From a virus, in the IMG/VR virus record IMGVR_UViG_3300005613_000272, positions 1 through 31,398 of that record: 31,398 bases of DNA; one strand, given 5' to 3'. Below the pieces are notes generated by a model, which saw nothing but the letters and a program-made list of their open reading frames with translations, was not told the DNA's origin and did not search any database. The translations under genes were made by a program, and so were the position numbers. Position 1 is the first letter of the stretch; every line of letters begins with the position of its first letter. Positions 2,740 to 24,064 of the stretch are shown here, in pieces.

Positions 2740-2749
2740 GGCGGGAGCC
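2740..2749 (+). promoter_or_regulatory. Short hairpin with ribosome site in GGGA loop
   Basis: GGC-GGGA-GCC forms a three-pair stem whose GGGA loop, continuing into GGGAG, is the ribosome site of the gene starting at 2752. A second small hairpin (CCCG-ATA-CGGG, 2727-2737) lies just upstream. It resembles, in weaker form, the Shine-Dalgarno hairpins at 10946, 15339 and 19038. Confidence 0.35.
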
Positions 2750-2751
2750 TT

Positions 2752-3051
2752 ATGAATAAATCATCCGGAAACAGTAGGGCAGCAAAAAACAAGCAGATAC
2801 GCAAAGAGGCGCTAAGAGATCAGTTATCTCAGCAAAAGCACGTCGAGCATGTCGTTGAAATCACTAATAAAATATCAGATCTCGATAATGAGCTTGATAA
2901 TCTACAAGTCCAAAGACTCAAGATAGCTGCAGAGTTAAAAATGAAGCTAGTTAATAAGTACTTGCCCGATATAAAAGCAATTGAATTAAGTGGAAAGGAT
3001 GGCGGCGACTTAGTTATAAATATTGCAAAAGACGATTCTGTTGTCTTATAA
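2752..3051 (+). CDS. Putative terminase small subunit (99 aa)
   Basis: Located directly before the large terminase, this protein has a basic N-terminus (NSRAAKNKQIRKEALRDQL), a coiled-coil middle (about residues 36-65) and the C-terminal KYLPDIKAIELSGKDGGDLV. That C-terminal form, L-P-D-(L/I)-K-x-(V/I)-E-L plus a glycine-rich end, is what I recall from small proteins preceding large terminases in gammaproteobacterial phages. Small terminases recognise packaging sites as rings. The assignment rests on position and this resemblance. Its end overlaps the large-subunit frame by 29 bases. Confidence 0.5.
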   Translation: MNKSSGNSRAAKNKQIRKEALRDQLSQQKHVEHVVEITNKISDLDNELDNLQVQRLKIAAELKMKLVNKYLPDIKAIELSGKDGGDLVINIAKDDSVVL

Positions 3052-4378
3052 AAACACCCCAAAGCAGGTAGAAGCCCTGAAAGTAATGGGGAGTGATGCG
3101 CTATACGTTATGCTATTTGGTGGTAGCCGTTCCGGTAAGACGTTTATTATTGTCAGAGCTATTGTTATCAGGGCATTAGCTGCGAAAGGTTCAAGACACG
3201 CAATCCTTCGCTTTAGATTCAACCATGTAAAAGCTTCCATCGTTCGAGACACCTTCCCAAAAGTAATGAGCCTGTGCTTTCCAGAGGTTGAGTACACGCT
3301 AGACAAGACAGACTGGTTTGCTCAATTCCCTAATGGCTCTCAAATATGGTTCGGTGGCCTTGACGACAAAGAGCGCACAGAGAAGATACTGGGTCAGGAG
3401 CACGTCAGCATCTATCTGAATGAATCAAGCCAGATTGTTTACTCGTCTGTCCTATTGGCTATCACACGACTTGCGCAAGTGGTCACTTACACGGTAGACG
3501 GCATCACTAAGACACTTAGGCCCAAGATGTATTTCGACTGTAACCCACCCTCTCAGGCTCATTGGTCATACAAACTATGGATTGCTCACCTTGACCCCGA
3601 AACAAACAAGCCCATTAAGAATATGGATGATTACGCCAGCCTTAAGATGAATCCTGTGGATAACGAAGACAATCTATCCCCTATTTACCTCAAAACCCTG
3701 CAGGGCATGCCAGCGAGAATGAAGAAACGCTTTTATGATGGAGACTTTGCCAGCACTACAGAAAACGCCTTATGGAACCTAGAAACGGTTGATAAATGGC
3801 GAGTAGATGAGGTTCCAGACCTGCAGCGTGTTGTGGTGGCAGTTGATCCTTCTGGCTCAGGGGATGAAGATAATCTTGAGAATGACGCAATAGGTATCGC
3901 CGTGGCTGGCCTCGGGGTTGACGGTAACGGTTATTTGCTTGAAGATTTAACTGTAAAAGGTGGCCCAGCTACATGGGGCAAAGTAGCAACAAACGCATAC
4001 GACAGACACGCAGCCGATAAGATTGTTGGTGAAACAAACTATGGTGGGGAAATGGTCAAGTTTGTCGTAAGAACGGCAAAGCCTGGTGTTCCTTACAAGA
4101 AAGTAACCGCGAGCCGTGGTAAAGTAGTAAGGGCAGAGCCTATTGCCTCACTTCATGAACAAGGTAAGATTAGATTTGTAGGCGATTTCCAAGACTTAGA
4201 AGATGAACTATACTCATTTACAACTATGGGCTATATTGGAGAAAGGTCGCCTAACAGGGCGGATGCTTTCATTTGGGCTATGACGGAATTATTTCCCGGT
4301 ATGGTTAAAGAAGAAAAACGCAAGAAAGAACGAGTTCCAAGAGCACACTACACAGGTGGTGGCGCGTGGATGGGTTAA
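3023..4378 (+). CDS. Terminase large subunit (packaging ATPase/nuclease)
   Basis: This is the motor that pumps DNA into the prohead and cuts the concatemer. The ATPase half has Walker A GGSRSGKT (residues 33-40), Walker B VSIYLNE ending in E134, and a coupling segment FDCNPP (171-176). The nuclease half has VVVAVDPSGSG (D275), GETNYGGE (E337) and SPNRADAFIWAMTE (D414), matching the acidic triad of the RNase H-like terminase nuclease. The 451-residue length is normal. The start is uncertain: TTG 3023 or TTG 3041 is needed to include the conserved KNTPKQVEAL stretch, because the first ATG (3086) falls inside it. Confidence 0.93.
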   Translation: MQKTILLSYKNTPKQVEALKVMGSDALYVMLFGGSRSGKTFIIVRAIVIRALAAKGSRHAILRFRFNHVKASIVRDTFPKVMSLCFPEVEYTLDKTDWFAQFPNGSQIWFGGLDDKERTEKILGQEHVSIYLNESSQIVYSSVLLAITRLAQVVTYTVDGITKTLRPKMYFDCNPPSQAHWSYKLWIAHLDPETNKPIKNMDDYASLKMNPVDNEDNLSPIYLKTLQGMPARMKKRFYDGDFASTTENALWNLETVDKWRVDEVPDLQRVVVAVDPSGSGDEDNLENDAIGIAVAGLGVDGNGYLLEDLTVKGGPATWGKVATNAYDRHAADKIVGETNYGGEMVKFVVRTAKPGVPYKKVTASRGKVVRAEPIASLHEQGKIRFVGDFQDLEDELYSFTTMGYIGERSPNRADAFIWAMTELFPGMVKEEKRKKERVPRAHYTGGGAWMG

Positions 4379-4686: not shown

Positions 4687-7050
4687 ATGCCAAATGATGC
4701 GACTGTCGAGAAGACAGACGAAAAGAAAGCGGAAGAGATCATTACGCTTGCTAAAGACTGTCTTGAGAAGTACACGGACAGGGAGCAGGATAATATAAAC
4801 CGAGCTGAAAGTGCGATTAAGTTCAGAGCCGGTGAGCAATGGCCTGATGCTATTCGCAGAGACCGTGAAGACGCCCACCAAGAAGGTGGCGCTCGTCCTT
4901 GTCCCGTACTCGATAAAACCGACCAATATGTCAGGCAAATAGTTAATGAAGAACGCCTAAACCGCGCAGCCATTAAGATACGTCCAGTAGATGATGGTGC
5001 AGATCCAGAAACCGCCGAGATATTCACAGGTATTATTAGGCATATTGAAGACGCTTCAGAGGCTTTGGTTGCTTATACCACAGCCGGAGAACATGCCATT
5101 GATGGTGGCTTTGGCTATTTCCGCCTTCTCACAGAATACGCGGATGAAATGTCCTTTAGTCAAGAAATTCGAATTAAACGTATCCATAACCGCTTCTCTG
5201 TTGCGCCAGGCTATCACACTGAGTCAGATGCAGCCGATATGAGAGAGTGCGTTATATGGGAAGACATGCTAAGAACAGATTTCAAGAAAGAATTCCCCGA
5301 TGCAAAAGAAGTACCCTTTGAACAAAACTCCGACTGGGCAGATAAAGACACGATAAAGATTGCTGAATATTTCAACATTAAGCCAGAAATCGTCAAGATT
5401 CATCAAATGGATACTGGCGAAGTCTTTACTGATGAAGACTATAATAAAATCAAGGCTCAAGCAGAAATCGAAGGCATAGATGTTCCTGAGCCAACACAAT
5501 CACGCGACACGTTAATTAACAAAGTTCATTGGTATAAAATCACATCTGAAGACATTCTTGACGAAAAGATTTTGCCCGGTCGCTTTATTCCGGTGATTAA
5601 GGTCTCAGGTAATGAATTAACTATGCCGGACGGTAAGATTCGTCTATCAGGTGCGGTTGAGTCATCAATGGATGCGCAAAGACTTCACAACTACGCTCAC
5701 GCTGGGTTTATTGAGCATGTTGCCCTTGCGCCTCGTGCGCCTTGGGTGGCTGAAGCTTCTCAGGTTGAGAACTATGAGTCTGATTATGCCGAAGCGAACC
5801 GTAGACCTATTGCGCTATTAAAATACGATGCTGTATCAGAAGATGGTCACATGATACCGCCTCCACAACGTACACCACCACCAGGCATGTCAACAGGATG
5901 GCAGCAGGTCATGCAAAACACAGAGCATGGCGTGGAAGCTGCATTTGGTATGTATGGTCCATCAGTAGGCGCAACATCACAAGAGAAGTCCGGTATTGCT
6001 CTGCAGGAGCAAAAAGCACAAGGGGCGGTGGGCCAGTTCCATTTCCCTGATAACCTTTCGCGCTCTATTCAACATTGCGGCCGGATACTGGTTGAGTGGA
6101 TACCTGTTTACTATGATACCGCGACGATTGCCCGCATATTGGGTGAAGACGGTGAACAGGAAATGATTAAGCTCAACCCCGACCAAGAAGAAGCGGTAAG
6201 ACCAGAGGTTGATGAGTTCGACCGTGAGGTGGGGAAAATCTACAATCTTACGGTTGGCCGCTATGATGTAACGGTGACAACAGGCCCGAGTTATTCAGCT
6301 AAACGTCAAGAAGCTGTCGATACTCAGACTCAAATCGTATCCGCTGCGCCTGAGTTAATGCAGGTCATCGGTGATATATTGTTCAGTAATATGGATGCGC
6401 CTGGCTCAGATAAGATTGCGGAACGATTGAAAACCTTACTGCCGCCTGAAATAAGAAAGCTTGAGGAAGACAAAGAACAAGGGCTAGACCCTAAAACGCA
6501 AGCCGCTATGCAGCAAATTGAGCAATCTGCTCAAATGTTGGAAGAAAAAGGCCAACAGCTTATGCAGTTTGAGCAAGAGGTTAAGTCTCAGGCACAAGAA
6601 GCAGGGGCAGATAAGCAAGAAGTGGATGCTGCGAGAAAAGAATTAGAAGCAGCCAAGAAACTATTTATTGCTGAAATTAAGCTGCAAGAAGCGAATATGG
6701 AGCTATACGCCAATAAATTGAAGAATGAGATCGAAGAAAGCTCTGGCGAAGACCCATCACAGTTTAAAGACTACAATATCGCGATTATTAAAGAAGAAGC
6801 AGCCAATCTGCGTCATGATAGGGAAATGCAGCTTAAAGAGTTTGAGGCGGGCATGAAAGACAAGCCCCGAGAGGACGCCATCAAGGACGCGCTAGAATCA
6901 CTTGGAAACAAGGTTCAGAATTTATCTGAGGCTTCCAGCACGCCAAAATTCCCGAATATTGAACGAGATGAAGAAGGTGAGATATTGCTGGTTAACGGCA
7001 AGAAGCCAATTCGTGACGAAAAAGGAAATATAACAGGGTTAGAGGATTAA
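4687..7050 (+). CDS. Portal protein, P22 gp1 family (787 aa)
   Basis: The portal is the dodecameric ring at the unique capsid vertex through which DNA enters and leaves. The N-terminal and central regions (RAGEQWPDAIRRDRE, ARPCPVLDKTDQYVRQIVNE, DGGFGYFRLLTEY, HNRFSVAPG) match the P22-type portal family. The C-terminal 200 residues are a long Gln/Glu/Ala-rich helical region (about 600-720), as expected for the P22-style alpha-helical barrel that extends into the capsid. Its length is close to the 725 residues of P22 gp1. It sits directly after the packaging genes. Confidence 0.92.
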   Translation: MPNDATVEKTDEKKAEEIITLAKDCLEKYTDREQDNINRAESAIKFRAGEQWPDAIRRDREDAHQEGGARPCPVLDKTDQYVRQIVNEERLNRAAIKIRPVDDGADPETAEIFTGIIRHIEDASEALVAYTTAGEHAIDGGFGYFRLLTEYADEMSFSQEIRIKRIHNRFSVAPGYHTESDAADMRECVIWEDMLRTDFKKEFPDAKEVPFEQNSDWADKDTIKIAEYFNIKPEIVKIHQMDTGEVFTDEDYNKIKAQAEIEGIDVPEPTQSRDTLINKVHWYKITSEDILDEKILPGRFIPVIKVSGNELTMPDGKIRLSGAVESSMDAQRLHNYAHAGFIEHVALAPRAPWVAEASQVENYESDYAEANRRPIALLKYDAVSEDGHMIPPPQRTPPPGMSTGWQQVMQNTEHGVEAAFGMYGPSVGATSQEKSGIALQEQKAQGAVGQFHFPDNLSRSIQHCGRILVEWIPVYYDTATIARILGEDGEQEMIKLNPDQEEAVRPEVDEFDREVGKIYNLTVGRYDVTVTTGPSYSAKRQEAVDTQTQIVSAAPELMQVIGDILFSNMDAPGSDKIAERLKTLLPPEIRKLEEDKEQGLDPKTQAAMQQIEQSAQMLEEKGQQLMQFEQEVKSQAQEAGADKQEVDAARKELEAAKKLFIAEIKLQEANMELYANKLKNEIEESSGEDPSQFKDYNIAIIKEEAANLRHDREMQLKEFEAGMKDKPREDAIKDALESLGNKVQNLSEASSTPKFPNIERDEEGEILLVNGKKPIRDEKGNITGLED

Positions 7051-10071: not shown

Positions 10072-10077
10072 TAAACC

Positions 10078-10136
10078 ATACCGCAGCCACGTCGTGAGAC
10101 GCGCAAAGCGGATGTAAAGCCGAGAGGTTTAACTTA
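10078..10136 (+). ncRNA. Structured 5' leader of scaffold/coat mRNA (putative RNA element)
   Basis: The leader between promoter and scaffold ribosome site folds into hairpins with GNRA-type tetraloops: CGTC-GTGA-GACG (10090-10101), flanked by CCGC (10081-10084) and GCGG (10108-10111), which can pair around it, and AAGCC-GAGA-GGTTT (10117-10130). It ends just before the strong AGGAGG site. The GTCGTGAGAC core differs by one base from the GTCGGGAGAC core of the Shine-Dalgarno hairpins elsewhere. A role in mRNA stability or translational control is inference. Confidence 0.45.
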
Positions 10137-10145
10137 GGAGGCCAA

Positions 10146-10945: not shown

Positions 10946-10959
10946 CTGTCGGGAGACAG
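10946..10959 (+). promoter_or_regulatory. Shine-Dalgarno hairpin before coat gene
   Basis: CTGTC-GGGA-GACAG is a perfect five-pair stem with a GGGA (GNRA-type) tetraloop. The ribosome site GGGAG (10951-10955) is made from the loop and first stem base and lies seven bases before the coat ATG. It is one of three near-identical elements. Compared with the copies at 15339 and 19038, the second stem pair is T-A instead of A-T, a compensatory change. Confidence 0.65.
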
Positions 10960-10962
10960 CAA

Positions 10963-12144
10963 ATGGCAAACTCACTATTAACGATTGATCAGATCACGAA
11001 TGAGGCATTACGCCTTGCTCATGAGAAAGCATCATTCATCGGCACTATAAACCGCCAATTCGATAGCTCTTTTGGGCGTTCAGATGGCAAAATCGGTGAC
11101 ACTCTCCGTATTCGCAAACCTTCACAATATACTCGCCGTCAAGGCAGTCGTGTTATGGATGTTCAAGATGCCGAAGAACAGAACACCACTTTAGTAACAG
11201 CAACACAAGACGGCGTGGATATGCGTTTTAATTCCCGTGAATTATCACTGGATTTACAAAACTTTTCACAGCAACATCTTGAACCTGCTGTCGCAGCTAT
11301 GATTTCAGGCATCGAGTCTGATGTGTTACAAGGCTGCACTAAATTAACTTACAACCTGGCAGGCACAGCAGGGACTTCACCGGCAGATTTAGCCGCTGTA
11401 GGCGCAGCTCGTGCAAAACTTAACCAAAACCTCGCACCAAAAGACGGAAACCGCTGTATTCAGATGGGTTCTGTAACTATGGGTACATTGGTCAATGGTT
11501 TGAAAGTTCTTTTTCAAGATTCAGATCAAATCAAAGAGCAGTACCGTGAAGGTATGGTTGGCCGCACTGCAATGGCTGATTTTTATGAAAATGAGCGCGT
11601 TTGGACAATGACTAACGGTGCTGATGTAGCTGGTGCAATTGATCAGACTTCATTCACTAACGGTTTATCTACTTTGACAGTAGACGCATATACTGCGGCG
11701 GCTGCAGTTGGTTCTGTTTTCACAATCGCTGGCGTTAAACAGGTCCACCCTGAAACGAAAGCGGCTTATCAGCATGAACAGCAATTTACTGTTACTGCAG
11801 CAACTACAACTTCTATCACGTTCTCTCCTGCTATGTATTGGGAAGGTGCGCGCCAGAATGTTGACCATCAACCATCAGAAAACGATGTAATCACACACGT
11901 TGGTTCAGCTTCTACAGGCTACGAGCAAAGCATTATGTATCATAAAGATGCGTTTACTTTTGCCACGGCTGAACTACCTATGATGGCTGATGCGGCTAAA
12001 TGCTCAGTTAAAAACTATGACGGCTTAAGTGTTCGTGTATGGCAAGCCTCTGACATCCGTAATGACGAAATGTTGACTCGTATTGATATGCTGTATGGTT
12101 ATGCCGCTATCCGTCCTGAGTGGGCAAGCCGAATAACTTCATAA
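10963..12144 (+). CDS. Major coat protein, P22 gp5-like (393 aa)
   Basis: The sequence (MANSLLTIDQITNEALRLAHEK, GDTLRIRKPSQYT, HLEPAVAAMISGIESDVL, TNGLSTLTVDAYTAAAAVGS, LSVRVWQASDIRNDEMLTRIDMLYGYAAIRPEWA) matches the P22 coat protein family, which has the HK97 fold with an inserted beta-rich I-domain. The insertion here is probably about residues 225-300. Length is close to the roughly 430 residues of P22 gp5. It directly follows the scaffold and is preceded by a Shine-Dalgarno hairpin. It forms the icosahedral shell. Confidence 0.92.
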   Translation: MANSLLTIDQITNEALRLAHEKASFIGTINRQFDSSFGRSDGKIGDTLRIRKPSQYTRRQGSRVMDVQDAEEQNTTLVTATQDGVDMRFNSRELSLDLQNFSQQHLEPAVAAMISGIESDVLQGCTKLTYNLAGTAGTSPADLAAVGAARAKLNQNLAPKDGNRCIQMGSVTMGTLVNGLKVLFQDSDQIKEQYREGMVGRTAMADFYENERVWTMTNGADVAGAIDQTSFTNGLSTLTVDAYTAAAAVGSVFTIAGVKQVHPETKAAYQHEQQFTVTAATTTSITFSPAMYWEGARQNVDHQPSENDVITHVGSASTGYEQSIMYHKDAFTFATAELPMMADAAKCSVKNYDGLSVRVWQASDIRNDEMLTRIDMLYGYAAIRPEWASRITS

Positions 12145-12155
12145 GGAGAATTATC

Positions 12156-12638
12156 ATGGCATTAGAAGAACTAGGTTATAAATCTCCCGAAGGGTGTATC
12201 GCTCACGGTATTCATCGTGAAGTTATATCTGGAAAAGGCGACACTACAAACGCTTACGAGCTAACAGCGGAACAATCAGGCTCACTTTGCCTGTTTGATG
12301 CGGCTGACGGTGTTATTTACACGCTTCCAGCGCCAGTAGTCGGGTTAAAATTCGATTTCTTGGTAACGGTTGCGGGTACTAGTAATGCTTACTCAATTGA
12401 TACTGATGCAGCGACTACCTTTATTGGTGGCGGCGTTGGCTCTTTCTCTACGACTGTAGCGGAAGGTGGCGACAGCTTTGCGGCTGATATTGCGGCAACT
12501 GTATCTGTTGATCTTGATAGTGATGTGACTGGCCGTTTGGTTGGTACTCACTTAACACTTACTTGCTTAAGCGCCACTACTTGGGGCATTTCAGGCAATA
12601 TTCATGGTGTTGGTACGTTAGCGACTCCATTCGCTTAA
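12156..12638 (+). CDS. Small head-associated protein after coat (160 aa)
   Basis: The product (MALEELGYKSPEGCIAHGI, LTAEQSGSLCLFDAADGVIYTLP) is rich in Thr, Gly and Ser and predicted beta-sandwich. Genes of this type often follow the coat gene and may encode capsid decoration proteins; this is inference. A strong AAGGAG site fixes the start at 12156. A terminator directly after it closes the scaffold-coat unit. Confidence 0.65.
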   Translation: MALEELGYKSPEGCIAHGIHREVISGKGDTTNAYELTAEQSGSLCLFDAADGVIYTLPAPVVGLKFDFLVTVAGTSNAYSIDTDAATTFIGGGVGSFSTTVAEGGDSFAADIAATVSVDLDSDVTGRLVGTHLTLTCLSATTWGISGNIHGVGTLATPFA

Positions 12639-12644
12639 CAGGTT

Positions 12645-12667
12645 GACCCCTTCGGGGGTCTTCTCTT
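12645..12667 (+). terminator. Rho-independent terminator
   Basis: GACCCC-TTCG-GGGGTC (12645-12660) is a six-pair stem with a very stable TTCG tetraloop, followed by TTCTCTT. The short, interrupted T-run suggests partial termination, lowering expression of connector genes relative to coat. Confidence 0.75.
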
Positions 12668-12678
12668 AAGGAGAGATC

Positions 12679-12942
12679 ATGATCATCTATCAGATGCACC
12701 CTAATCATGGGCGTCATAAAGCATTCAGTCACAACGAAGCAAAAGAAAACAACGAAAATGGCTGGAAAACGGTCACAGAAGAAGAGTTTTACGCGGGTAT
12801 TTTAAAAAAGGCAGAGATTATTGAAGAATCAGACGAACTTTCAGATCGTGACAAGCTGGTTATTTCTTATGAAATGAAGTTTGGTAAAAAACCAAGCCAT
12901 TTAATGAAAGACGAAACAATTCAGAAAAAATTGGATGAATAA
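12679..12942 (+). CDS. Conserved small phage protein (87 aa)
   Basis: The N-terminus IIYQMHPNHGRHKAFSHNEAKENNENGW and C-terminus YEMKFGKKPSHLMKDETIQKKL match two short modules that I recall from phage proteins encoded between coat and head-completion genes. The C-terminal module resembles small HeH-type helical folds. No function is established. It has a strong AAGGAG site and its stop overlaps the next start. Confidence 0.6.
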   Translation: MIIYQMHPNHGRHKAFSHNEAKENNENGWKTVTEEEFYAGILKKAEIIEESDELSDRDKLVISYEMKFGKKPSHLMKDETIQKKLDE

Positions 12943-13685
12943 TGCCTATTATCCTAGAAACAGGCGCATTACCCGATATAACCGCTAATAACATTATTAA
13001 GCGCGCTTATAAGATACTTGGCGATCTCGGGCAAGGTGAATCACTTACATCCGCACAGGCAGATGACGGCTTAGAAGCCCTCAACGCCATGCTGGACAGC
13101 TTTTCTATAGAGAGGCTGTTGATTTATGAAGTGCGTCAAGAGTCCCTCACATGGCCTGCAAGTACAGCCTCAAGGACTATTGGGTCGGGTGGGGATTATG
13201 ATACACACAGACCTGACAGGGTAGAAAGTGGGACGTATTTCCAAGATACGAACAATATTGCTTATCCTGTTGATATATTAAGAAATCGGGAAGTTTATGA
13301 TGCTATCTATGACAAAACGGTCGAATCTTCTTATCCGGAAAAGCTCTATTATGAGCCATCTGTTACATTAGGTACGCTGTACGCCTATCCTGTTCCAAGC
13401 CAGTCTTTAACACTCAAACTAAACACATGGCAACCCTTACAAATATTTAACTCATTATCAGAAGTGCATAATCTCCCTTCTGGTTATCGACGTATGCTGT
13501 CTTATAATTTAGCCAAAGAGCTTGAGGCTGAAGTGGGACTTATGTTGCCGCCTGGAGCGCGTCAAATAGCAAACGAGTCTAAAAAGACCGTTAAACGTCA
13601 TAATGACTTGCCTATCTTATCTCAGACAGAAACAGCTTTTGTTTTAAATGGTAGAGGTAGATCTGATATTGTGGCAGGAAAATGA
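12942..13685 (+). CDS. Head completion/connector protein, P22 gp4-like (247 aa)
   Basis: The N-terminus (ANNIIKRAYKILGDLGQGE, then DDGLEALNAMLDSFSIERLLIY) is characteristic of the P22 gp4 family, which binds under the portal as a ring, the first tail accessory factor that closes the packaged head. The LPSGYRRMLSYNLAKELEAE helix is also typical. It is longer than P22 gp4 (166 aa), as is common in this family outside P22. It lies immediately before the gp10-like gene and overlaps it by four bases, the same order as in P22. Confidence 0.8.
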   Translation: MPIILETGALPDITANNIIKRAYKILGDLGQGESLTSAQADDGLEALNAMLDSFSIERLLIYEVRQESLTWPASTASRTIGSGGDYDTHRPDRVESGTYFQDTNNIAYPVDILRNREVYDAIYDKTVESSYPEKLYYEPSVTLGTLYAYPVPSQSLTLKLNTWQPLQIFNSLSEVHNLPSGYRRMLSYNLAKELEAEVGLMLPPGARQIANESKKTVKRHNDLPILSQTETAFVLNGRGRSDIVAGK

Positions 13686-15100
13686 GAATTGAAAACCCTC
13701 TATTTGGGATCGGACTACAGGGAAAAAGTCCAAATGTTACCGCTAATTCTTTAGTTAATGCCTACTATGAATTCCAACAAGAAAGAGACAGAACCCGCGT
13801 GGCTATCTATGGGACGCCAGGTCTCGAGCTTTTTATTGATAACGGTGATACGCCTTGGCGTGGGCTGCTTCCTTTTGGTTCGCTTCTTTATGGCGTACAT
13901 CGCGGTACGTTTTACGAAATAAATAACGCCGGTGTCATCACGTCACGTGGCACAATAGGCACAACACAAGGCCGCGTCGATATATGCGATGATGGCACAT
14001 TGATAACGGTTGTTGATGGCTCAGAAATATACACTTATGACACCGCGACTCCTGCAACGCCAATCGCTGCTGTGGCCGATGCTCAAAGACCAACCTCACC
14101 CAATACCTGCATATTCCAAGCGGGCCGGATACTGACTGACGAGAATGATACAGGGCAATTCAAAGGCTCCGCCCTGTACGACAACACAGCTTGGGCGGCG
14201 CTTGACTTCGCCACGGCTGAAAGCAATCCCGATAATTTAATCAGAGTAACCAACTACCGTGGAACGGTTGTTTTATTCGGTGAGTACACCACAGAATTTT
14301 GGCAGAATGTCGGTGGCTCTGGCTTCCCTTATGCGCGTATTTTGGGCGCTGATGTTGAATATGGTCTTGCAGCAAGATGGTCGTTAGGCCGATTTGCTGG
14401 CACTTATGCTTTCCTAACAAAAAATAGAGAGGGGCAAGTTATTGTCGCCGTACTCAACGGATACAGCCAGCCAACAAGAATATCTAATTTTGAATTTGAG
14501 CACTTAATTAATAATTATTCATCGGTATCTGACGCGACAGGCTTTGGGTATATGCTAGGTGGTCATCCAATGTATCAGCTTAATTTCCCGATTGAAGGTA
14601 AGTCATGGTTGTATGACGGATCGACCCAGTACTGGTCAGAATTACGTTATGGATCTGATGCAAGGCACAGGGCTGAAATAAGCGTTGATTTTATCAATGA
14701 GACTGTTGTTGCAGACTATGAAAACGGAAAGCTGTATAAATTAAAGGCCGATACTTACACGGATAACGGCGTCACAATCAACATGATATTACGCGGCAAA
14801 CATATTGCAACAGATAAGAAAAAAGTAAGACTATCAAGAATAGAATTAGGTTATGAGCCTGCGACGACCACAGACCATAACGCTAACCCCGTCGCCGCAC
14901 TTCGTTTGTCAAAAGATGGTGGCCATTCATGGGGCACGCAAGTATTTGCTAAACTAGGGAAGGTGGGGGAGTATATGAACCGCTGTATTTGGCGTATTGG
15001 TGGAAGCGGGCGCGATATTGTGCCGGAGATTGTGATTGCCGAACCTATTAAAAAGGTGATTACAGAGGCCACATTAATTATAGAGGACGGCATATCATGA
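13682..15100 (+). CDS. Packaged-DNA stabilisation protein, P22 gp10-like (472 aa)
   Basis: The protein starts MRIENPLFGIGLQGKSPNVTANSLVNAYYE and contains many short beta segments (TPGLELFID, GRILTDENDTGQFKGSALYD, GTVVLFGEYTTEFWQN), matching the P22 gp10 family. The 472-residue length equals that of P22 gp10. In P22 this hexameric plug sits below the gp4 ring and keeps the DNA inside. The gene order gp4-gp10 supports the assignment. Confidence 0.88.
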   Translation: MRIENPLFGIGLQGKSPNVTANSLVNAYYEFQQERDRTRVAIYGTPGLELFIDNGDTPWRGLLPFGSLLYGVHRGTFYEINNAGVITSRGTIGTTQGRVDICDDGTLITVVDGSEIYTYDTATPATPIAAVADAQRPTSPNTCIFQAGRILTDENDTGQFKGSALYDNTAWAALDFATAESNPDNLIRVTNYRGTVVLFGEYTTEFWQNVGGSGFPYARILGADVEYGLAARWSLGRFAGTYAFLTKNREGQVIVAVLNGYSQPTRISNFEFEHLINNYSSVSDATGFGYMLGGHPMYQLNFPIEGKSWLYDGSTQYWSELRYGSDARHRAEISVDFINETVVADYENGKLYKLKADTYTDNGVTINMILRGKHIATDKKKVRLSRIELGYEPATTTDHNANPVAALRLSKDGGHSWGTQVFAKLGKVGEYMNRCIWRIGGSGRDIVPEIVIAEPIKKVITEATLIIEDGIS

Positions 15101-15327
15101 CAGCACCAATTCAAGTCCCTTTTGATGAAAATGAAATGCCGAATAAAGCGTGGGTTGAATGGGCTTCATCTGTCGATAGACAGGATAAATACAAAGGCGC
15201 AGACACAACCGCTAATCGGCCTGTAAACGGCTTAATTGATGGTGATTATTATATGGATACTACCCTTGGAAAGCCTATCTGGTACTTGAGTGGCGGATGG
15301 GTGGACGCAACAGGGGCTTCGGTCTAA
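15097..15327 (+). CDS. Small tail/virion-associated protein, unknown (76 aa)
   Basis: The short protein (IQVPFDENEMPNKAWVEWASS, DGDYYMDTTLGKPIWYLSGGWVDATG) contains a D-T-x-L-G-K-P-I-W-Y...W-V-D-A-T-G segment often seen at the ends of phage tail or fibre proteins. It occupies the place where P22 encodes the tail needle gp26, but is far too short and lacks heptad repeats. Start overlaps the gp10-like stop. Confidence 0.6.
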   Translation: MTAPIQVPFDENEMPNKAWVEWASSVDRQDKYKGADTTANRPVNGLIDGDYYMDTTLGKPIWYLSGGWVDATGASV

Positions 15328-15338
15328 ACTAAAGAAAA

Positions 15339-15352
15339 CAGTCGGGAGACTG
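15339..15352 (+). promoter_or_regulatory. Shine-Dalgarno hairpin before first ejection protein
   Basis: CAGTC-GGGA-GACTG is a five-pair stem with the ribosome site GGGAG in and next to the GGGA loop, and the ATG at 15355 follows the hairpin by two bases. It is identical to the element at 19038 and differs from that at 10946 by one compensatory pair. Confidence 0.65.
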
Positions 15353-15354
15353 CT

Positions 15355-16146
15355 ATGACACAGATAAAACACGTAACAGAAAAGGAAATGACACGGCGTA
15401 CAGGTGTTAGAAATGCGCTTGGTTATACATATCCCGAAAAAGATTTAATACTTTTAAGAAAAGGTCTTGCTGGAAAGCAGAAGCGTGAAGTATTAGAACA
15501 TGAAATGAATCATCTTAGAAAAGGTGAGGAAGGCCCCTATGCGTGGATCCCTGCTGCTATAAGCGCAGTTTCATCCTATGTGGGCGGTAGAAAAGAGAAA
15601 AAAGCAGCCGAACAAGCCGCAGCTTTACAAAGAGAACAGTCAGGAAAGGCAGAAGGTTATTTAGAGCCTTATCGCCAGTTTGGTGAAGAGAGACTTGGCG
15701 ACCTACAAAATTGGCTTGCTGGCCCTAGCAGCGTATTTCAAAAACCCACTATGGAAGAAGTGCAGGCAACACCTGGTTATGAATCAAGGCTTGGTGCAAT
15801 AGAAAGCTCTGCTGCAGCAAGAGGCTCTTTATTCTCTGGTAATGCTTTGCGAGATATTGGTGAGTTTGGCGCAAGCGAATATGATCGAGAAATGGCACGT
15901 AGACAAAACGAATTAGCCAACAGATTACAATTAACCAATCTTGGTTACGGTGCTGCAGGTGGTCAAGCGGGTATCGCTCAAAGTCTTGGGCCTCAATTAG
16001 GCCAATACGCCATGCAAGCAGGCCAAGCATCCTCAAGAGGACTTAGCGGAGTTGGTGAAAGTATTGCGGGTGGGTATGGCGCATATCAAGGCCAGAAGAA
16101 TTGGAATGACTTTCTAAACCGAGCTTACCCGAAAGGAGAGGCATAA
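15355..16146 (+). CDS. DNA ejection-type protein with HExxH metallopeptidase motif (263 aa)
   Basis: The C-terminal two thirds (GGRKEKKAAEQAAALQREQ, PGYESRLGAIESSAAARGSLFSG, NRLQLTNLGYGAAGGQ) resembles P22 gp7-type DNA transfer proteins, carried in the capsid and injected first. The N-terminal 60 residues differ: they end KREVLEHEMNHLRKGEEGP, where H49-E50-x-x-H53 is a canonical zinc-metallopeptidase motif with nearby Glu (57-59 region) as a possible third ligand. A cell-wall or self-cleaving protease fused to an ejection protein is inferred. It has a Shine-Dalgarno hairpin. Confidence 0.7.
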   Translation: MTQIKHVTEKEMTRRTGVRNALGYTYPEKDLILLRKGLAGKQKREVLEHEMNHLRKGEEGPYAWIPAAISAVSSYVGGRKEKKAAEQAAALQREQSGKAEGYLEPYRQFGEERLGDLQNWLAGPSSVFQKPTMEEVQATPGYESRLGAIESSAAARGSLFSGNALRDIGEFGASEYDREMARRQNELANRLQLTNLGYGAAGGQAGIAQSLGPQLGQYAMQAGQASSRGLSGVGESIAGGYGAYQGQKNWNDFLNRAYPKGEA

Positions 16147-17300
16147 TGGCTAACGCGATGGATGCTTATTTTAGAGGTATGCAAGGCTCTATGCAGGCAG
16201 GGCAAAACGCCCTTGCTATGCAGCAGGCCGCCGATAAGATACGGCAAGACAGGCAATTAAGAAATATATTAGCGGGTGCTTATGAACAGCCGCAAGCGGG
16301 TATTCCTGCGATGGGCGCTGCTCCTGCTATGGGTGCGGTACAACCTGGCGCTGCTCCTTTATCTGACTACCCTGCTCAAGCGGCTATCCCTGCTCAAGCT
16401 GGAGGGTTAAATATTGAGAACGCATTAAACGCAATGTATCAAGGTGGTTTCGGGCCTGAAGCACTTGATTTGCAAATGAAAATGGAGAAACAGAAAGGCG
16501 GGTTAGGGACATATAATCCGAGAGACTATACCCCTGAATCATGGGCCGGATTTATAAAAACCCGTGACCCTGCTGCTTTGAAGCGGTACACAGAAAAAAC
16601 GGTAACTTTGGGCGGAGTTGAACATCAGTTAACGCCAGATAGGGGATACGTCCCATTAAGCACATTACAAGATGAGGCGGATGCAGCAGCTAGACTGGAA
16701 GCCAGCAAGACAGGGGCCAAGATAAAGACGCAAACAGAGTTGGCCCCGGAATTAAAGTTCAAGGAAAAGCTCGGATCAGAAGGTGCGGCGGTTTACTCAA
16801 AGCTATCAAAAGCAGCGCAAGAAGCATCAGCTTTTATCCCTCGCCTGCAATCGCTTAAAGAGTTGGCTGGCAAAGTTAGGACAGGTACGGGCGCAGAAAT
16901 TAAAATGATAGCAAAGCGCGCACTTAACGTTGATTCAGCCGATATGGAAGTACTCAATGCAAAATTAGGTGAGTTGGCGCAAGAAATATTAAACCAGCAA
17001 ACTGGCACAAAGACTGACTTTGATTTTGAAAATGCGGTAAGACAATCCGCAGCCCTGGGAAAAACACCAAAAGCAAACGCATTGTTAATTGATGCTTTAA
17101 TTAAACGACAAGAGCAAGCTGTTAATTTTGGCGACCAAGCGAAACAAGCGTATGAGAAATACGGGCCGAAAGGCGTCTTGGATATGCGATACCAACAACC
17201 AGCGCAAACATCATCTGCACCGAAAAAAGGAGCCGTTCAAGGAGGTTATATTTTCTTAGGCGGCGATCCTGCAAAACCTGAAAGCTGGAAGAAAAAATGA
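16146..17300 (+). CDS. Putative internal/DNA ejection protein (384 aa)
   Basis: The N-terminus is helical and Gln/Ala-rich (FRGMQGSMQAGQNALAMQQA), followed by a Pro/Ala linker (about residues 48-85). The central part is charged helices. The segment LNQQTGTKTDFDFENAVRQSAALGKT and the C-terminal GYIFLGGDPAKPESWKK are recurrent in phage internal proteins of this position. It stands where P22 has gp20, so ejection through the tail with the DNA is likely, by synteny rather than by clear homology. Overlaps its neighbours at both ends. Confidence 0.65.
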   Translation: MANAMDAYFRGMQGSMQAGQNALAMQQAADKIRQDRQLRNILAGAYEQPQAGIPAMGAAPAMGAVQPGAAPLSDYPAQAAIPAQAGGLNIENALNAMYQGGFGPEALDLQMKMEKQKGGLGTYNPRDYTPESWAGFIKTRDPAALKRYTEKTVTLGGVEHQLTPDRGYVPLSTLQDEADAAARLEASKTGAKIKTQTELAPELKFKEKLGSEGAAVYSKLSKAAQEASAFIPRLQSLKELAGKVRTGTGAEIKMIAKRALNVDSADMEVLNAKLGELAQEILNQQTGTKTDFDFENAVRQSAALGKTPKANALLIDALIKRQEQAVNFGDQAKQAYEKYGPKGVLDMRYQQPAQTSSAPKKGAVQGGYIFLGGDPAKPESWKKK

Positions 17301-18976
17301 AGCCTTGGGAGCAATATCAACAACCAGAAGCTGCGCCGTGGGAGAGTTATCAAGCTCAACCTGAAGAACAACCAATACTAGCCACAATGGGCGGTCAAGC
17401 GCCTGGCGGGAATACTGCTGCTGATGTCGGGTTAGCTGCTGTTGGCGGCGCTAACGTGCTCGCACCTTCTCTGCTTGGATTACCTGTTGACGTTGCTCAA
17501 AATATTGCAAACCTTGGCATTGCTGGGTACGGGGTGGCGCGTAAAGAAATTGGTGAAGCATTAGGTGAAGAAGGCTATATTCCTCCTGAAACATTGCCAC
17601 CTCAGCCTGGTGGCTCTCAATGGATGCGCGAAAAGATTGCAGAGGCTTCTCGCAAATTAGGCGGTGGCGATCCGTTTGCATTACCCGACCCATCTGATCC
17701 AACACAGCAAAAAGCAGCGTTGGCCGGAACAATACTGGCAACAGGCGCAATGGCTCCGGCTACTGGCCCTGCTGGAATGGCGGCAAATGTGGGAAAAATG
17801 GCTATTCCTGCTGCTGGCGCACTAGGTATGCAAGAAGCATTTCCTGAACAACCTTTGGCTCCTATGGTCGGCATGATGGCTGCACCAGCGGGGATAGCGG
17901 CGGCTAGTAAGGCAAAATCAGTTATTGCTCCTAAAATTGAGGCTTCAAAGGCTTTTATTAAAGCTCACAAGCTGGGCTATAAAGTGCCGCCAGCATTAGC
18001 AAAACCCACTAAAACCCAACAGTTTGCTGAGGGAACGGCTGGCCCTGTGCCAACAAAACAAAAAGCGTCTATACATAACCAGCAAGTAACGAATAAGCTA
18101 ATTAAGAAGGATATTGGCTATCCTGAAGACGTGCCTTTATCTCAAGACGGGCTTAATTTAATTAGGCAGCAAGCAGGTAAGGCGTATGACAGAACAAAAG
18201 TAATTGGTGTGTTTAAGTCAGATCCATCTTACGTCAAATCATTAAGCGGTATTGCAAAACAAGGCTCCGCGATGGCTAAAGACTTCCCGAAAGCGGTCAG
18301 GAAGGACGTCGTTGATATGGTGAAAACATACTCTAAAAAACAAATGTCAGCGGAAGGCACTGTGGAGGCTGTTAAGCAACTACGCGCAGATTCTAGCGCA
18401 GGATATAACTCACCAGACCCATCTATCTCAGCTATGGCAAGAGCAAAAGGCAAAGTTGCTGATGCTTTAGAAGGATTAATGGAAAGGCAGGCTGCGCAAA
18501 CTCATCCTGACCTTGTTCCTGCATTGAAGGCGGCAAGACAGCGAATTGCTAAAACATACACTATTGAAAAAGCCTTAAAAGGTGAAAATATTGATGCGGT
18601 TGCTTTAGGTCGTCAACTCGATAAAGGGAAGCCGTTATCTGGCGGAATACGAGACGTAGCTGAATTTGGTCAAAACTTTAAAGGTGCAGCACAAACAAAC
18701 GTGCCTCAATCAACAAACTTTAGGCCAATGGATTTAGTGGCTGGTGTTGGTGGTGCGGTTGGCACTGGAAATCCTGCATGGTTAGCGGCAATGGCAGCTA
18801 GACCAGCATTAAGAAGTGTATTGCTGTCAAAGCCATACCAAACGCTATTGGCTAAACCAAAATTCAGCATGGCAATACAAAAAGCAATGAAATTACCAGA
18901 TACAGAGGCAATAGCCGCGCTTAATGCGATAATGGCGCAAGAGGCTCAAAGGTCTGGAAATGCAGACTCAATGTAG
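17297..18976 (+). CDS. Putative internal/DNA ejection protein (559 aa)
   Basis: The protein begins with two PWExYQ repeats (KPWEQYQ, APWESYQ), a style common at the N-termini of phage ejection proteins. It then has long Ala/Gly/Met-rich hydrophobic stretches (about residues 39-85 and 138-205) suited to membrane insertion, followed by charged helices. It occupies the place of P22 gp16, which helps DNA cross the inner membrane. Assignment is by synteny and composition. It is followed by a 78-base gap before the tail fibre. Confidence 0.65.
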   Translation: MKPWEQYQQPEAAPWESYQAQPEEQPILATMGGQAPGGNTAADVGLAAVGGANVLAPSLLGLPVDVAQNIANLGIAGYGVARKEIGEALGEEGYIPPETLPPQPGGSQWMREKIAEASRKLGGGDPFALPDPSDPTQQKAALAGTILATGAMAPATGPAGMAANVGKMAIPAAGALGMQEAFPEQPLAPMVGMMAAPAGIAAASKAKSVIAPKIEASKAFIKAHKLGYKVPPALAKPTKTQQFAEGTAGPVPTKQKASIHNQQVTNKLIKKDIGYPEDVPLSQDGLNLIRQQAGKAYDRTKVIGVFKSDPSYVKSLSGIAKQGSAMAKDFPKAVRKDVVDMVKTYSKKQMSAEGTVEAVKQLRADSSAGYNSPDPSISAMARAKGKVADALEGLMERQAAQTHPDLVPALKAARQRIAKTYTIEKALKGENIDAVALGRQLDKGKPLSGGIRDVAEFGQNFKGAAQTNVPQSTNFRPMDLVAGVGGAVGTGNPAWLAAMAARPALRSVLLSKPYQTLLAKPKFSMAIQKAMKLPDTEAIAALNAIMAQEAQRSGNADSM

Positions 18977-19009
18977 TTAGCAAGCACAAAAAACAAGATT
19001 ATATATAGT
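18977..19009 (+). promoter_or_regulatory. Possible promoter for tail genes
   Basis: The 78-base gap before the tail fibre is AT-rich, unlike its surroundings. TTAGCA (18977-18982) and TATATA (19000-19005) have 17-base spacing, and TATAGT follows at 19004-19009. Each box is only a partial match, so the promoter call is weak. Confidence 0.25.
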
Positions 19010-19037
19010 ATCATTTCCATAATGTAATTATAGCAAA

Positions 19038-19051
19038 CAGTCGGGAGACTG
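19038..19051 (+). promoter_or_regulatory. Shine-Dalgarno hairpin before tail fibre gene
   Basis: CAGTC-GGGA-GACTG, identical to the element at 15339, carries the ribosome site GGGAG in its loop. The following CAAATGGCA is the same as the bases after the coat-gene copy at 10946, so the conserved unit extends from the hairpin through the start codon. Confidence 0.65.
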
Positions 19052-19054
19052 CAA

Positions 19055-20830
19055 ATGGCACAAAGACTGAGCATATTTTCAGGAAGACAATTTATTGACG
19101 CTAATGGCGATCCATACGTGGGCGCAAAGCTGTTTACTTATCTTGCTGGAAGCGCAACAAAGACAACAACAACAAAGGATTCTGCCGGATTATCAGACCA
19201 TGCCAACCCGATTATTCTTAATTCAAGGGGTGAGCCTGGTGACGGTGCTGGTGCAGCTCAAGCAATTTGGCATCCTGAAGGAACGACATTAAAGTATGTT
19301 TTAGCCCCTTCTGGTGATACCGACCCACCTGTCTCTGCTATTTCAACATGGGATAACGTGCCGGGTGTCAATGATACATCTATAACCGATCAAGGTCAGT
19401 GGGTATTAGGCCCGACCCCGACATACGTTGGCGCGACTTCATTTACCTTAATCGGAGACCAAACGTCTGATTTTCATGTTGGCCGTAGAATAAAGACCAC
19501 AAATTCAGGCGGTACAATTTACAGCTTAATCACTGTGAGTGCTTACACCTCATTAACTACAGTAACAGTGGTCAATGACTCTGGCGTATTGGATTCTGGC
19601 TTATCTGCTGTTTCTTACGGGTTATTAACTTCTGACAATCCATCTGTGCCCGGTGATTTAACAAAAATCAGAAAGCTTGATGCTTCTGGTTTGGTTAGAT
19701 TCTCAAAAGGCTCAGATATAGCCTCAGCAACAGAATTGCCTCATGTCACAGATGGGAATTATTCAGATGTAACAGGCACGACGACGATCACCTCTATTGC
19801 GACCACAGGCCAGATTGGGACGGTTATTAAGCGTCATTTTGATGGTATTTTAACACTTACCCATCATGCGACAGATTTAATTTTACCTGGTAGCGCAAAC
19901 ATCACAACAGCGGCAGGCGACGAAGCGGAATTTATTGAATACGCTTCAGGTGATTTTATCTGCACTAATTATAATAGAGCAGATGGGACGGCCGTGGTTG
20001 CTACTGGCTTAAATATTGTTGATTCGAGCTTTTCGTCAGGTCTTTGGTATCAAGGAACGGGTGATGATGGGTCTAAAACAGTCGCCGCATCTGAAAACTT
20101 AGCTCGCGGTGAATACCATTACACTGATTTAACGGTTAGCGCAGGGCAAACGTTAGGCGTATCTAATACATCAGGTGGGTTAATTATTCGCTGTACAGGT
20201 GCAGTCACTATCAATAACACAGCAATTATCAGCGTAGACGGTAAAGGTGGCCCTGGCGGTGTAGGCGTTATCAGTGTTGCTGGTGCGGCTGGCACAGATG
20301 GTATTTTAGGCGGCGCTGGCGGCTCTGGAGGCAATGATGGATTTGATAGCGGAAAGGGCGGCGATGTTACTATCCGAAGAGAAACCCTGGCGGGCGGCGC
20401 ATCCAAAACAGGGGGCGCAGGCGCAGGAAGTGGCGGCTCGTCTTTAGCTGCTGCTACGCGAATAATTAGAACTTTAACCTCTTACGGTGACGATCTATTA
20501 GGGATATATGGTGGTGGTGGCGGGGGTGCTGGGACAGGCGGAACCACCACGCCGGGTGACGGCGGCGCTGGCGGTGGCTTTGTTATTATTATCGCTGATT
20601 CAATTGACTTTCAAACAGGCGCAACCATTACAGCAGACGGTGTGAATGGCTCTAATAATGCTAATGATGGTGGTGGTGGCGGCGGCGGTGGTGGTTTTGT
20701 TTTGCTTGCTGCAAGAACAATAACCAATAACGGCACAATCACTGTTACCGGCGGAACAGGTGGGACAGGCATATCAGGATATAACGGCGGTGCTGGTGGT
20801 GCTGGTCATTCAATAGTGATAACAGGATAA
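19055..20830 (+). CDS. Tail fibre/appendage protein with glycine-rich C-terminus (591 aa)
   Basis: The N-terminal 60 residues (FSGRQFIDANGDPYVGAKLFTYLAGSATKTTTTKDSAG) match the head-binding or structural start common in podovirus tail proteins: D-A-N-G-x-P-x-V-G-A-K followed by an A-G-(S/T) segment. From about residue 395 to the end it is glycine-rich (GGAGGSGG, a run of about nine Gly near residue 540), interleaved with beta segments such as ITNNGTITVTGG. Such regions form polyglycine-II sandwiches in the receptor-binding adhesin gp38 of T-even-like phages. Host recognition is inferred. Confidence 0.75.
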   Translation: MAQRLSIFSGRQFIDANGDPYVGAKLFTYLAGSATKTTTTKDSAGLSDHANPIILNSRGEPGDGAGAAQAIWHPEGTTLKYVLAPSGDTDPPVSAISTWDNVPGVNDTSITDQGQWVLGPTPTYVGATSFTLIGDQTSDFHVGRRIKTTNSGGTIYSLITVSAYTSLTTVTVVNDSGVLDSGLSAVSYGLLTSDNPSVPGDLTKIRKLDASGLVRFSKGSDIASATELPHVTDGNYSDVTGTTTITSIATTGQIGTVIKRHFDGILTLTHHATDLILPGSANITTAAGDEAEFIEYASGDFICTNYNRADGTAVVATGLNIVDSSFSSGLWYQGTGDDGSKTVAASENLARGEYHYTDLTVSAGQTLGVSNTSGGLIIRCTGAVTINNTAIISVDGKGGPGGVGVISVAGAAGTDGILGGAGGSGGNDGFDSGKGGDVTIRRETLAGGASKTGGAGAGSGGSSLAAATRIIRTLTSYGDDLLGIYGGGGGGAGTGGTTTPGDGGAGGGFVIIIADSIDFQTGATITADGVNGSNNANDGGGGGGGGGFVLLAARTITNNGTITVTGGTGGTGISGYNGGAGGAGHSIVITG

Positions 20831-23624: not shown

Positions 23625-23699
23625 ATGGCAACTAAAAAGAAACCCTGTAACCCGAAACCTAAACCGAAACCCAAACCAAAAAAGAAGATGTACGCATGA
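23625..23699 (+). CDS. Lys-Pro cationic micropeptide in lysis cassette (24 aa)
   Basis: A ribosome site (AAGGAAAG) precedes MATKKKPCNPKPKPKPKPKK, which ends KMYA. It has one Cys and no acidic residue. The stop overlaps the next start as ATGA. It shares the tandem Lys-Pro design with the protein at 2603-2719. Cationic phage peptides that disturb the outer membrane are known, so a lysis role is possible but unproven. Confidence 0.45.
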   Translation: MATKKKPCNPKPKPKPKPKKKMYA

Positions 23700-24064
23700 A
23701 TACTTTAGAAAAGATTATCGCAGGTATCTGTATATTTGTGTTTCTCTGCGTTATTACGTACCAGGCAACAGCTAGTGAAAGACATCATATCGTGAATACG
23801 CCTGTCATTGAGACTACAGAAACCGTCATTAATAATTATAGTGTGAATGATGGTATTGCACTGGCCATTTCTAACAGCCAGATAGACTGCAACCACTCGA
23901 CTCAAAGGTGGCAGGGTGGTGTAGGAATGGGTTTCTACGACTCTAAAACAGCCATTTCAGGCGGTATTTGTAAGCGATTTAAAGATACCCTAATAAAGGC
24001 AACCTTCGGAACAGAAGAGGGTAATTTAGGGGGTGGTATGGGTATTATGTGGCAGTTTAACTAA
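23696..24064 (+). CDS. Mini YadA-like outer-membrane anchor protein (122 aa)
   Basis: An N-terminal signal or anchor segment (KIIAGICIFVFLCVITYQATASE, possible cleavage after ATA) is followed by a C-terminal half resembling the YadA membrane anchor: IALAIS, WQGGVGMGFYDSKTAISGGI, KRFKDTLIKATFG, GGGMGIMWQF. This is four amphipathic beta strands ending in Phe-Asn, the pattern of trimeric autotransporter translocator domains. In a lysis cassette this may be an outer-membrane protein acting in lysis or exclusion. Start overlaps the micropeptide stop. Confidence 0.65.
   Translation: MNTLEKIIAGICIFVFLCVITYQATASERHHIVNTPVIETTETVINNYSVNDGIALAISNSQIDCNHSTQRWQGGVGMGFYDSKTAISGGICKRFKDTLIKATFGTEEGNLGGGMGIMWQFN

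Follow-up and report, generated by a model that had tools for sequence, protein, structure and literature searches.

A recurrent GGGA-loop hairpin before the virion genes of unrelated viruses, a candidate translational operator

Why should the same small hairpin stand before three separate virion genes of one virus? The question is raised by IMG/VR virus record IMGVR_UViG_3300005613_000272, whose positions 1-31,398 form the window analysed here (31,398 nucleotides). In this window an RNA hairpin with five base pairs and a GGGA tetraloop precedes the genes for the major coat protein, a DNA-ejection protein and a putative tail fibre. All three copies named in the original prediction lie where it placed them, on the + strand, each before an ATG (Table 1).

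Hairpin copies in the window and in related viruses

The + strand of the window has three occurrences of the hairpin core, GTCGGGAGAC; the - strand and a reversed control have none. Order-1 Markov simulation of the window, run 200 times, gave an expectation of 0.18 for the unit stem5-GGGA-stem5 and of 0.03 for the unit before an ATG, against three observed in each case. The predicted sharing of downstream sequence by two copies is also seen, CAAATGGCA directly following copies 1 and 3. The ribosome-binding motif proves to be GGAG, made of the loop GGA and the G that opens the 3' stem arm, rather than the loop itself as had been proposed; in most copies it lies at a normal distance from the ATG.

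Relatives of the window were picked by coat protein alone. Eight of them (L004, L005, L007, L008, L009, L013, L014 and L072) have retained the hairpin in front of the coat gene, with outer pairs UA/UA in L004, CU/AG in L005, L008, L014 and L072, AU/AU in L007 and UU/AA in L013; in L009 (CU/AU) the outermost pair is a mismatch. L004 has three hairpins, before its coat, ejection and tail genes, which matches the arrangement of the window. The one at 18264-18283 occupies the same place as the tail-fibre hairpin, and a side-by-side comparison of translations shows that the N-terminus of the putative tail-fibre protein, whose gene has no Pfam or PHROG match, is similar to the one encoded at 18284 in L004. 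L014 has two hairpins, and L009 has one before the portal gene and one before the coat gene. At the ejection-gene sites orthologous to copy 2, L004, L014 and L547 all have CTGTC/GACAG.

A protein-anchored alignment of 15 distinct rows has 96% of its cells paired and contains 10 double-change cells. Covariation in it scores 0.377, compared with 0.097 for shuffled versions (0/500) and no more than 0.065 for slid ones. In these rows the top ten bases, GUC-GGGA-GAC, hardly change, and the two lower pairs covary. Most portal orthologues from another podovirus group have the stem AUGUC/GACAU, and L366 and L494 have UUGCC/GGCAA instead. U-G wobble variants also occur, CTGTC.GGGA.GGCAG in L479 and L499 and CTGCC.GGGA.GGCGG in L504. 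The predicted stability of the 14-mer falls in a narrow range of about -4 to -5.5 kcal/mol, and a sixth Watson-Crick pair is found in only 7 of 100 non-redundant sites; the base adjoining the stem, in an A/U-rich 5' flank, is A in 72 of the 100. The compensatory changes among orthologues, the wobble variants and the excess of paired over broken arms in IMG/VR (below) strongly support the selection on RNA structure that the original prediction had suggested. Related late genes, checked for unpaired or randomly varying bases, did not contradict it: the stem is kept wherever the element is present, and elsewhere the whole element is absent.

Some copies lie further from the start codon. In the G023 group one hairpin is found ∼60 nt and another ∼15 nt upstream of a large open reading frame (ORF), each with a nearer purine-rich site, and in L169 and L504 two tandem hairpins precede a P22-like coat gene that has a separate AAGGA. 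In these copies GGGA persists without being the Shine-Dalgarno sequence. Tandem hairpins with different stems also precede the portal genes of L520 and L563 (26 and 30 nt apart). There are four tandem pairs in all, spaced 26-51 nt, before coats or portals, and most copies lack a neighbouring core. Display of the Shine-Dalgarno sequence, the role first proposed, therefore describes most copies but is insufficient alone, because GGGA is retained where a separate Shine-Dalgarno sequence lies downstream.

The G023-group leader, before a probable capsid gene (L480 8546, L483 4745, L490 9325), has two more hairpins after the GGGA hairpin, which appear compensated between variants.

Table 1. Hairpins and associated genes in the window
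Feature	Position	Strand	Remarks
Hairpin CTGTC.GGGA.GACAG (copy 1)	10946..10959	+	Before P22-like coat gene, ATG 10963; GGAG is the Shine-Dalgarno sequence
Hairpin CAGTC.GGGA.GACTG (copy 2)	15339..15352	+	Before DNA-ejection protein gene, ATG 15355
Hairpin CAGTC.GGGA.GACTG (copy 3)	19038..19051	+	Before putative tail-fibre gene, ATG 19055
Weak relative GGC.GGGA.GCC	2740..2749	+	3-bp stem; before ORF at ATG 2752; no support from conservation
Hairpin AAGCC.GAGA.GGTTT	10117..10130	+	Related but distinct; upstream of the scaffold gene's own Shine-Dalgarno sequence
Major coat protein gene	10963..12144	+	PF11651 P22 coat protein, phrog_283
DNA-ejection protein gene	15355..16146	+	phrog_598
Putative tail-fibre gene	19055..20830	+	591 aa; named by position

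Occurrence among viral records

Scans of IMG/VR with two paired-arm patterns, CTGTCGGGAGACAG-N(1-7)-ATG and ATGTCGGGAGACAT-N(1-7)-ATG, gave 57 and 77 matches respectively, against 3 for CTGTCGGGAGACTC-N(1-7)-ATG, the single stem-broken pattern that serves as control. A minority of the paired-arm matches are due to chance or lie within coding repeats. When the core was fixed and the arms left free, both outer pairs were Watson-Crick, among the matches listed, at 17 of 66 sites before ORFs of at least 100 aa, against 5.6 with permuted 3' flanks (highest value 15 in 2000 permutations), and at 11 of 89 before ORFs of less than 40 aa, against 6.4 (highest 17). The 14-mer CAGTCGGGAGACTG alone has 92 IMG/VR matches, mostly not before genes, so that sequence without position is not evidence. 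Only the GGGA loop is enriched before starts in the records that bear the hairpin (24 against at most 2, and 58 against at most 2 for GGA-containing loops).

Four cores in MW202691 (L463) were rejected as unrelated to the hairpin, since they lie within a coding repeat. This repeat is a minisatellite in a coding sequence on the minus strand, with a unit of ∼27 bp that contains GTCGGGAGAC.

The families matched most by the 79 proteins behind paired copies (the top 25 families were tallied for each set) are portal, scaffold, head-tail adaptor, tail-fibre assembly, DNA ejection, virion structural and major coat, whereas the 71 proteins behind unpaired cores, the control, gave DNA polymerase, methyltransferase, ParB and mixed families. 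Nearly all hairpin copies are intergenic and come soon after the stop codon of the previous gene. The longer, multi-copy bearers have 2-5 copies each, with one orientation in nearly all records, and the 37 viral records that have a related coat and no coat hairpin contain no core anywhere. We conclude that the hairpin is either present throughout a genome or absent, as expected of a cis element with a trans reader and not of gene-by-gene tuning, within the limits set by small numbers and fragmentary records.

As judged from their proteins, the bearers span three viral realms, namely tailed phages, a corticovirus-like element (one record) and inoviruses (two records). In the corticovirus-like element, L257, the protein behind the hairpin matches phrog_8536, with 24-35% identity to Vibrio and Pseudoalteromonas double-jelly-roll capsids. 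In the inoviruses L515 and L571 the hairpin precedes a Gp8-type major coat, and L571 also has a Zot/protein-I gene. Comparison of ten bearer records by BLASTP revealed no protein common to all, and 13 bearer records gave no match to the CsrA family. Named phages yielded no near DNA match to the window, L257, L316 or L532 and no distant match to L569. A stem-5 GGGA hairpin before a start was found in none of nine records, all whole except PAE2, and it is absent from PM2. Genome scans of bacterial chromosomes for relatives gave none, host genes not being included in the search.

Possible functions of the hairpin

The explanation that we favour, tentatively and with slightly less than an even chance of being correct, is that the hairpin serves as a translational operator in late mRNA, read by an RNA-binding protein that acts in trans and is probably encoded by the host. 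The cis-acting element would be the 5-bp hairpin with its GGGA tetraloop, near-fixed top and covarying two-pair base. The protein would recognise the top and, once bound, would compete with or aid the 30S subunit, thereby timing or coordinating the translation of virion genes. Taken together, four features speak for a sequence-specific RNA-binding protein: the fixed top above a covarying base, retention of the loop where copies are distal, the existence of tandem copies, and an all-or-none distribution. In addition, the marginal stem and the avoidance of a sixth pair suggest that the ribosome must remain able to open the hairpin. Since bearers from three realms have no common protein, we infer that the reader is host-encoded, with a Csr/Rsm-type dimer or its functional like as the leading candidate. 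It is possible, if rather doubtful, that viruses of three realms independently adopted or exchanged GUC-GGGA-GAC as a signal that is read by a conserved host RNA-binding protein and controls virion-gene translation.

Several points weigh against a protein-read operator. We infer both the reader protein and its binding to the hairpin. The loop is the Shine-Dalgarno sequence in most copies, which explains some of its conservation more simply, and because the IMG/VR scans required the core, its invariance outside the protein-anchored sets (coat, ejection, portal and scaffold) is partly by construction. The tandem pairs number only four, the CsrA consensus loops ANGGAN and AGGGA show no enrichment before starts in bearers, and many of the bearer records are fragments.

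CsrA/Rsm sites have an A(N)GGAX loop with a conserved A, usually of 5-6 nt (PMC4005645, PMC7652899); a CsrA dimer bridges two sites 10-63 nt apart (PMC7652899), and RsmZ stem-loops are closed by C-G and then U-A pairs (PMC4005645). The CsrA-like protein suggested earlier is a candidate. The hairpins targeted by CsrA, RsmA and RsmE, as in the glgC and hcnA leaders, likewise have GGA in the loop, often over the Shine-Dalgarno sequence. The GGGA hairpin is closed by a fixed C-G pair followed by U-A in 14 of the 15 distinct rows (C-G in one), and in the few tandem pairs the spacing falls within the range bridged by CsrA. The loop, however, departs from the canonical form, being strictly 4 nt in every copy, with neither the conserved A nor the X, and the targets are phage virion genes. 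Because the conserved A is missing and the canonical loops are not enriched, we do not file the GGGA hairpin as a CsrA site.

A translational operator of a phage usually responds to a single phage protein and controls one gene or a few. In the MS2-type coat/replicase operator the phage's coat protein binds a small hairpin at the ribosome site, and a single gene is repressed; the GGGA hairpin, with a different sequence, would likewise be a small ribosome-site hairpin that controls phage translation. The operator of T4 gp43, the DNA polymerase, is also a phage translational operator with a fixed top, its upper 10 bases including the loop being identical in T4 and RB69 and the hairpin lengths differing (PMC3014915). 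That operator, however, serves one gene, answers to a phage-encoded autoregulator, lies ∼40 nt upstream of the start and has a UAAC loop, whereas the GGGA hairpin precedes many virion genes and no shared phage protein was found. Rfam families gave no credible match to the window at E values up to 10 and none to the G023-group leader, and neither GUCGGGAGAC nor a description of the GGGA hairpin was found in the partial range of papers searched. As a covarying hairpin at the ribosome site with a conserved top, it has the structure of a phage translational operator, and we conclude that it is a new family of this known kind, with an unusual distribution across viruses.

The single 14-nt hairpin described here stands before virion genes of viruses that have no common protein. 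This distribution points to a switch not described before, probably one that a host factor reads, which controls the timing of particle building. If a host factor does read the hairpin, it would provide a direct link between host post-transcriptional regulation and virus assembly, a route to assigning the hosts of uncultured viruses, and a compact part for translation control.

The main rival, in our estimate unlikely and still serious, is a ribosome site that acts without any protein, in which a GNRA-like hairpin offers GGAG and a marginal stem sets the initiation rate and prevents other leader folds. The usual distance of GGAG from the ATG, the narrow range of stability, the A/U-rich outer pairs and the rarity of a sixth pair are all consistent with such tuning, which nevertheless leaves unexplained why the upper three pairs are near-fixed and the lower two vary, why distal copies retain GGGA, why some copies are in tandem, and why the hairpin is all-or-none by genome.

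A signal for mRNA processing or stability appears improbable. The hairpin could protect a 5' end cleaved in the upstream A/U-rich stretch, as the prevalent A beside the stem, the intergenic position after a stop codon and the covarying GNRA hairpins also found before the scaffold gene might suggest, but A/U-rich leaders are equally an ordinary ribosome-binding context and a protective hairpin would need no fixed top sequence. Alternatively it could itself be cut at GGAG by a RegB-like nuclease. T4 RegB/S1 sites similarly have GGAG in translation initiation regions, and RegB cuts unpaired GGA with a constrained fourth G without S1 (PMC3014915). RegB, however, acts on early mRNA and inactivates its targets, its strong sites share GGAGRAYARAA rather than a conserved hairpin, and T4 late transcripts are not its substrates (PMC3014915); in the window GGAG is followed by AC and the stem arm, before virion genes, and a virus gains nothing by cutting its own coat mRNA.

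A DNA-level dyad, as an operator or part of a promoter, is very improbable. The compensatory arm changes would keep a DNA dyad too, and GGGAGA is reminiscent of T7-type promoter starts, but the distance to the start codon is constant in most copies, one orientation prevails in almost all multi-copy records, and there is no conserved upstream promoter sequence. The U-G wobble variants also weigh against it, since they preserve the RNA stem yet break the dyad. A T7-type promoter was ruled out for want of a conserved upstream half, and a LexA-like box (CTGT...ACAG) because its spacing differs and the arms vary. Chance, or the recent recombinational copying of a single leader, can hardly account for the hairpins: copies 2 and 3 of the window are identical in 14/14 bases, but three copies are seen against 0.03 expected, arms differ by compensation and flanks also differ, the same genes bear the hairpin in L004, and unrelated viruses bear it as well.

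Other hairpins and features of the window

The scaffold-gene leader (10076-10145) contains a second hairpin, CGTC.GTGA.GACG at 10090-10101, besides the one listed in Table 1. In P22-like bearers the scaffold-leader hairpin has a GNRA loop (GUGA or GAGA) and a covarying stem, with 9 double-change cells (0/500 shuffles). L009 (G005) has, at ∼16843 on the minus strand, a further GNRA hairpin with a GTC/GAC top, ACGTC.GCGA.GACGT, shortly before an ATG.

The weaker relative that had been predicted near the left end of the window is present, before an ORF directly upstream of the putative large-terminase ORF (3023-4378), but it is not confirmed by conservation. The sequence CTGTC.GAGAA.GACAG (4703-4717) lies within the putative portal reading frame, soon after its start at 4687; since the portal gene of L009 is preceded by a GGGA hairpin, this sequence may be a remnant or a coincidence. 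Another hairpin of different sequence, TCTCT.TAAGG.AGAGA (12662-12678), also has a Shine-Dalgarno sequence in its loop and lies 2 nt before ATG 12679. Further along, 23696-24064 encodes a 122-aa phage protein with a C-terminal YadA-like membrane anchor domain (PF03895, E 4.4e-06).

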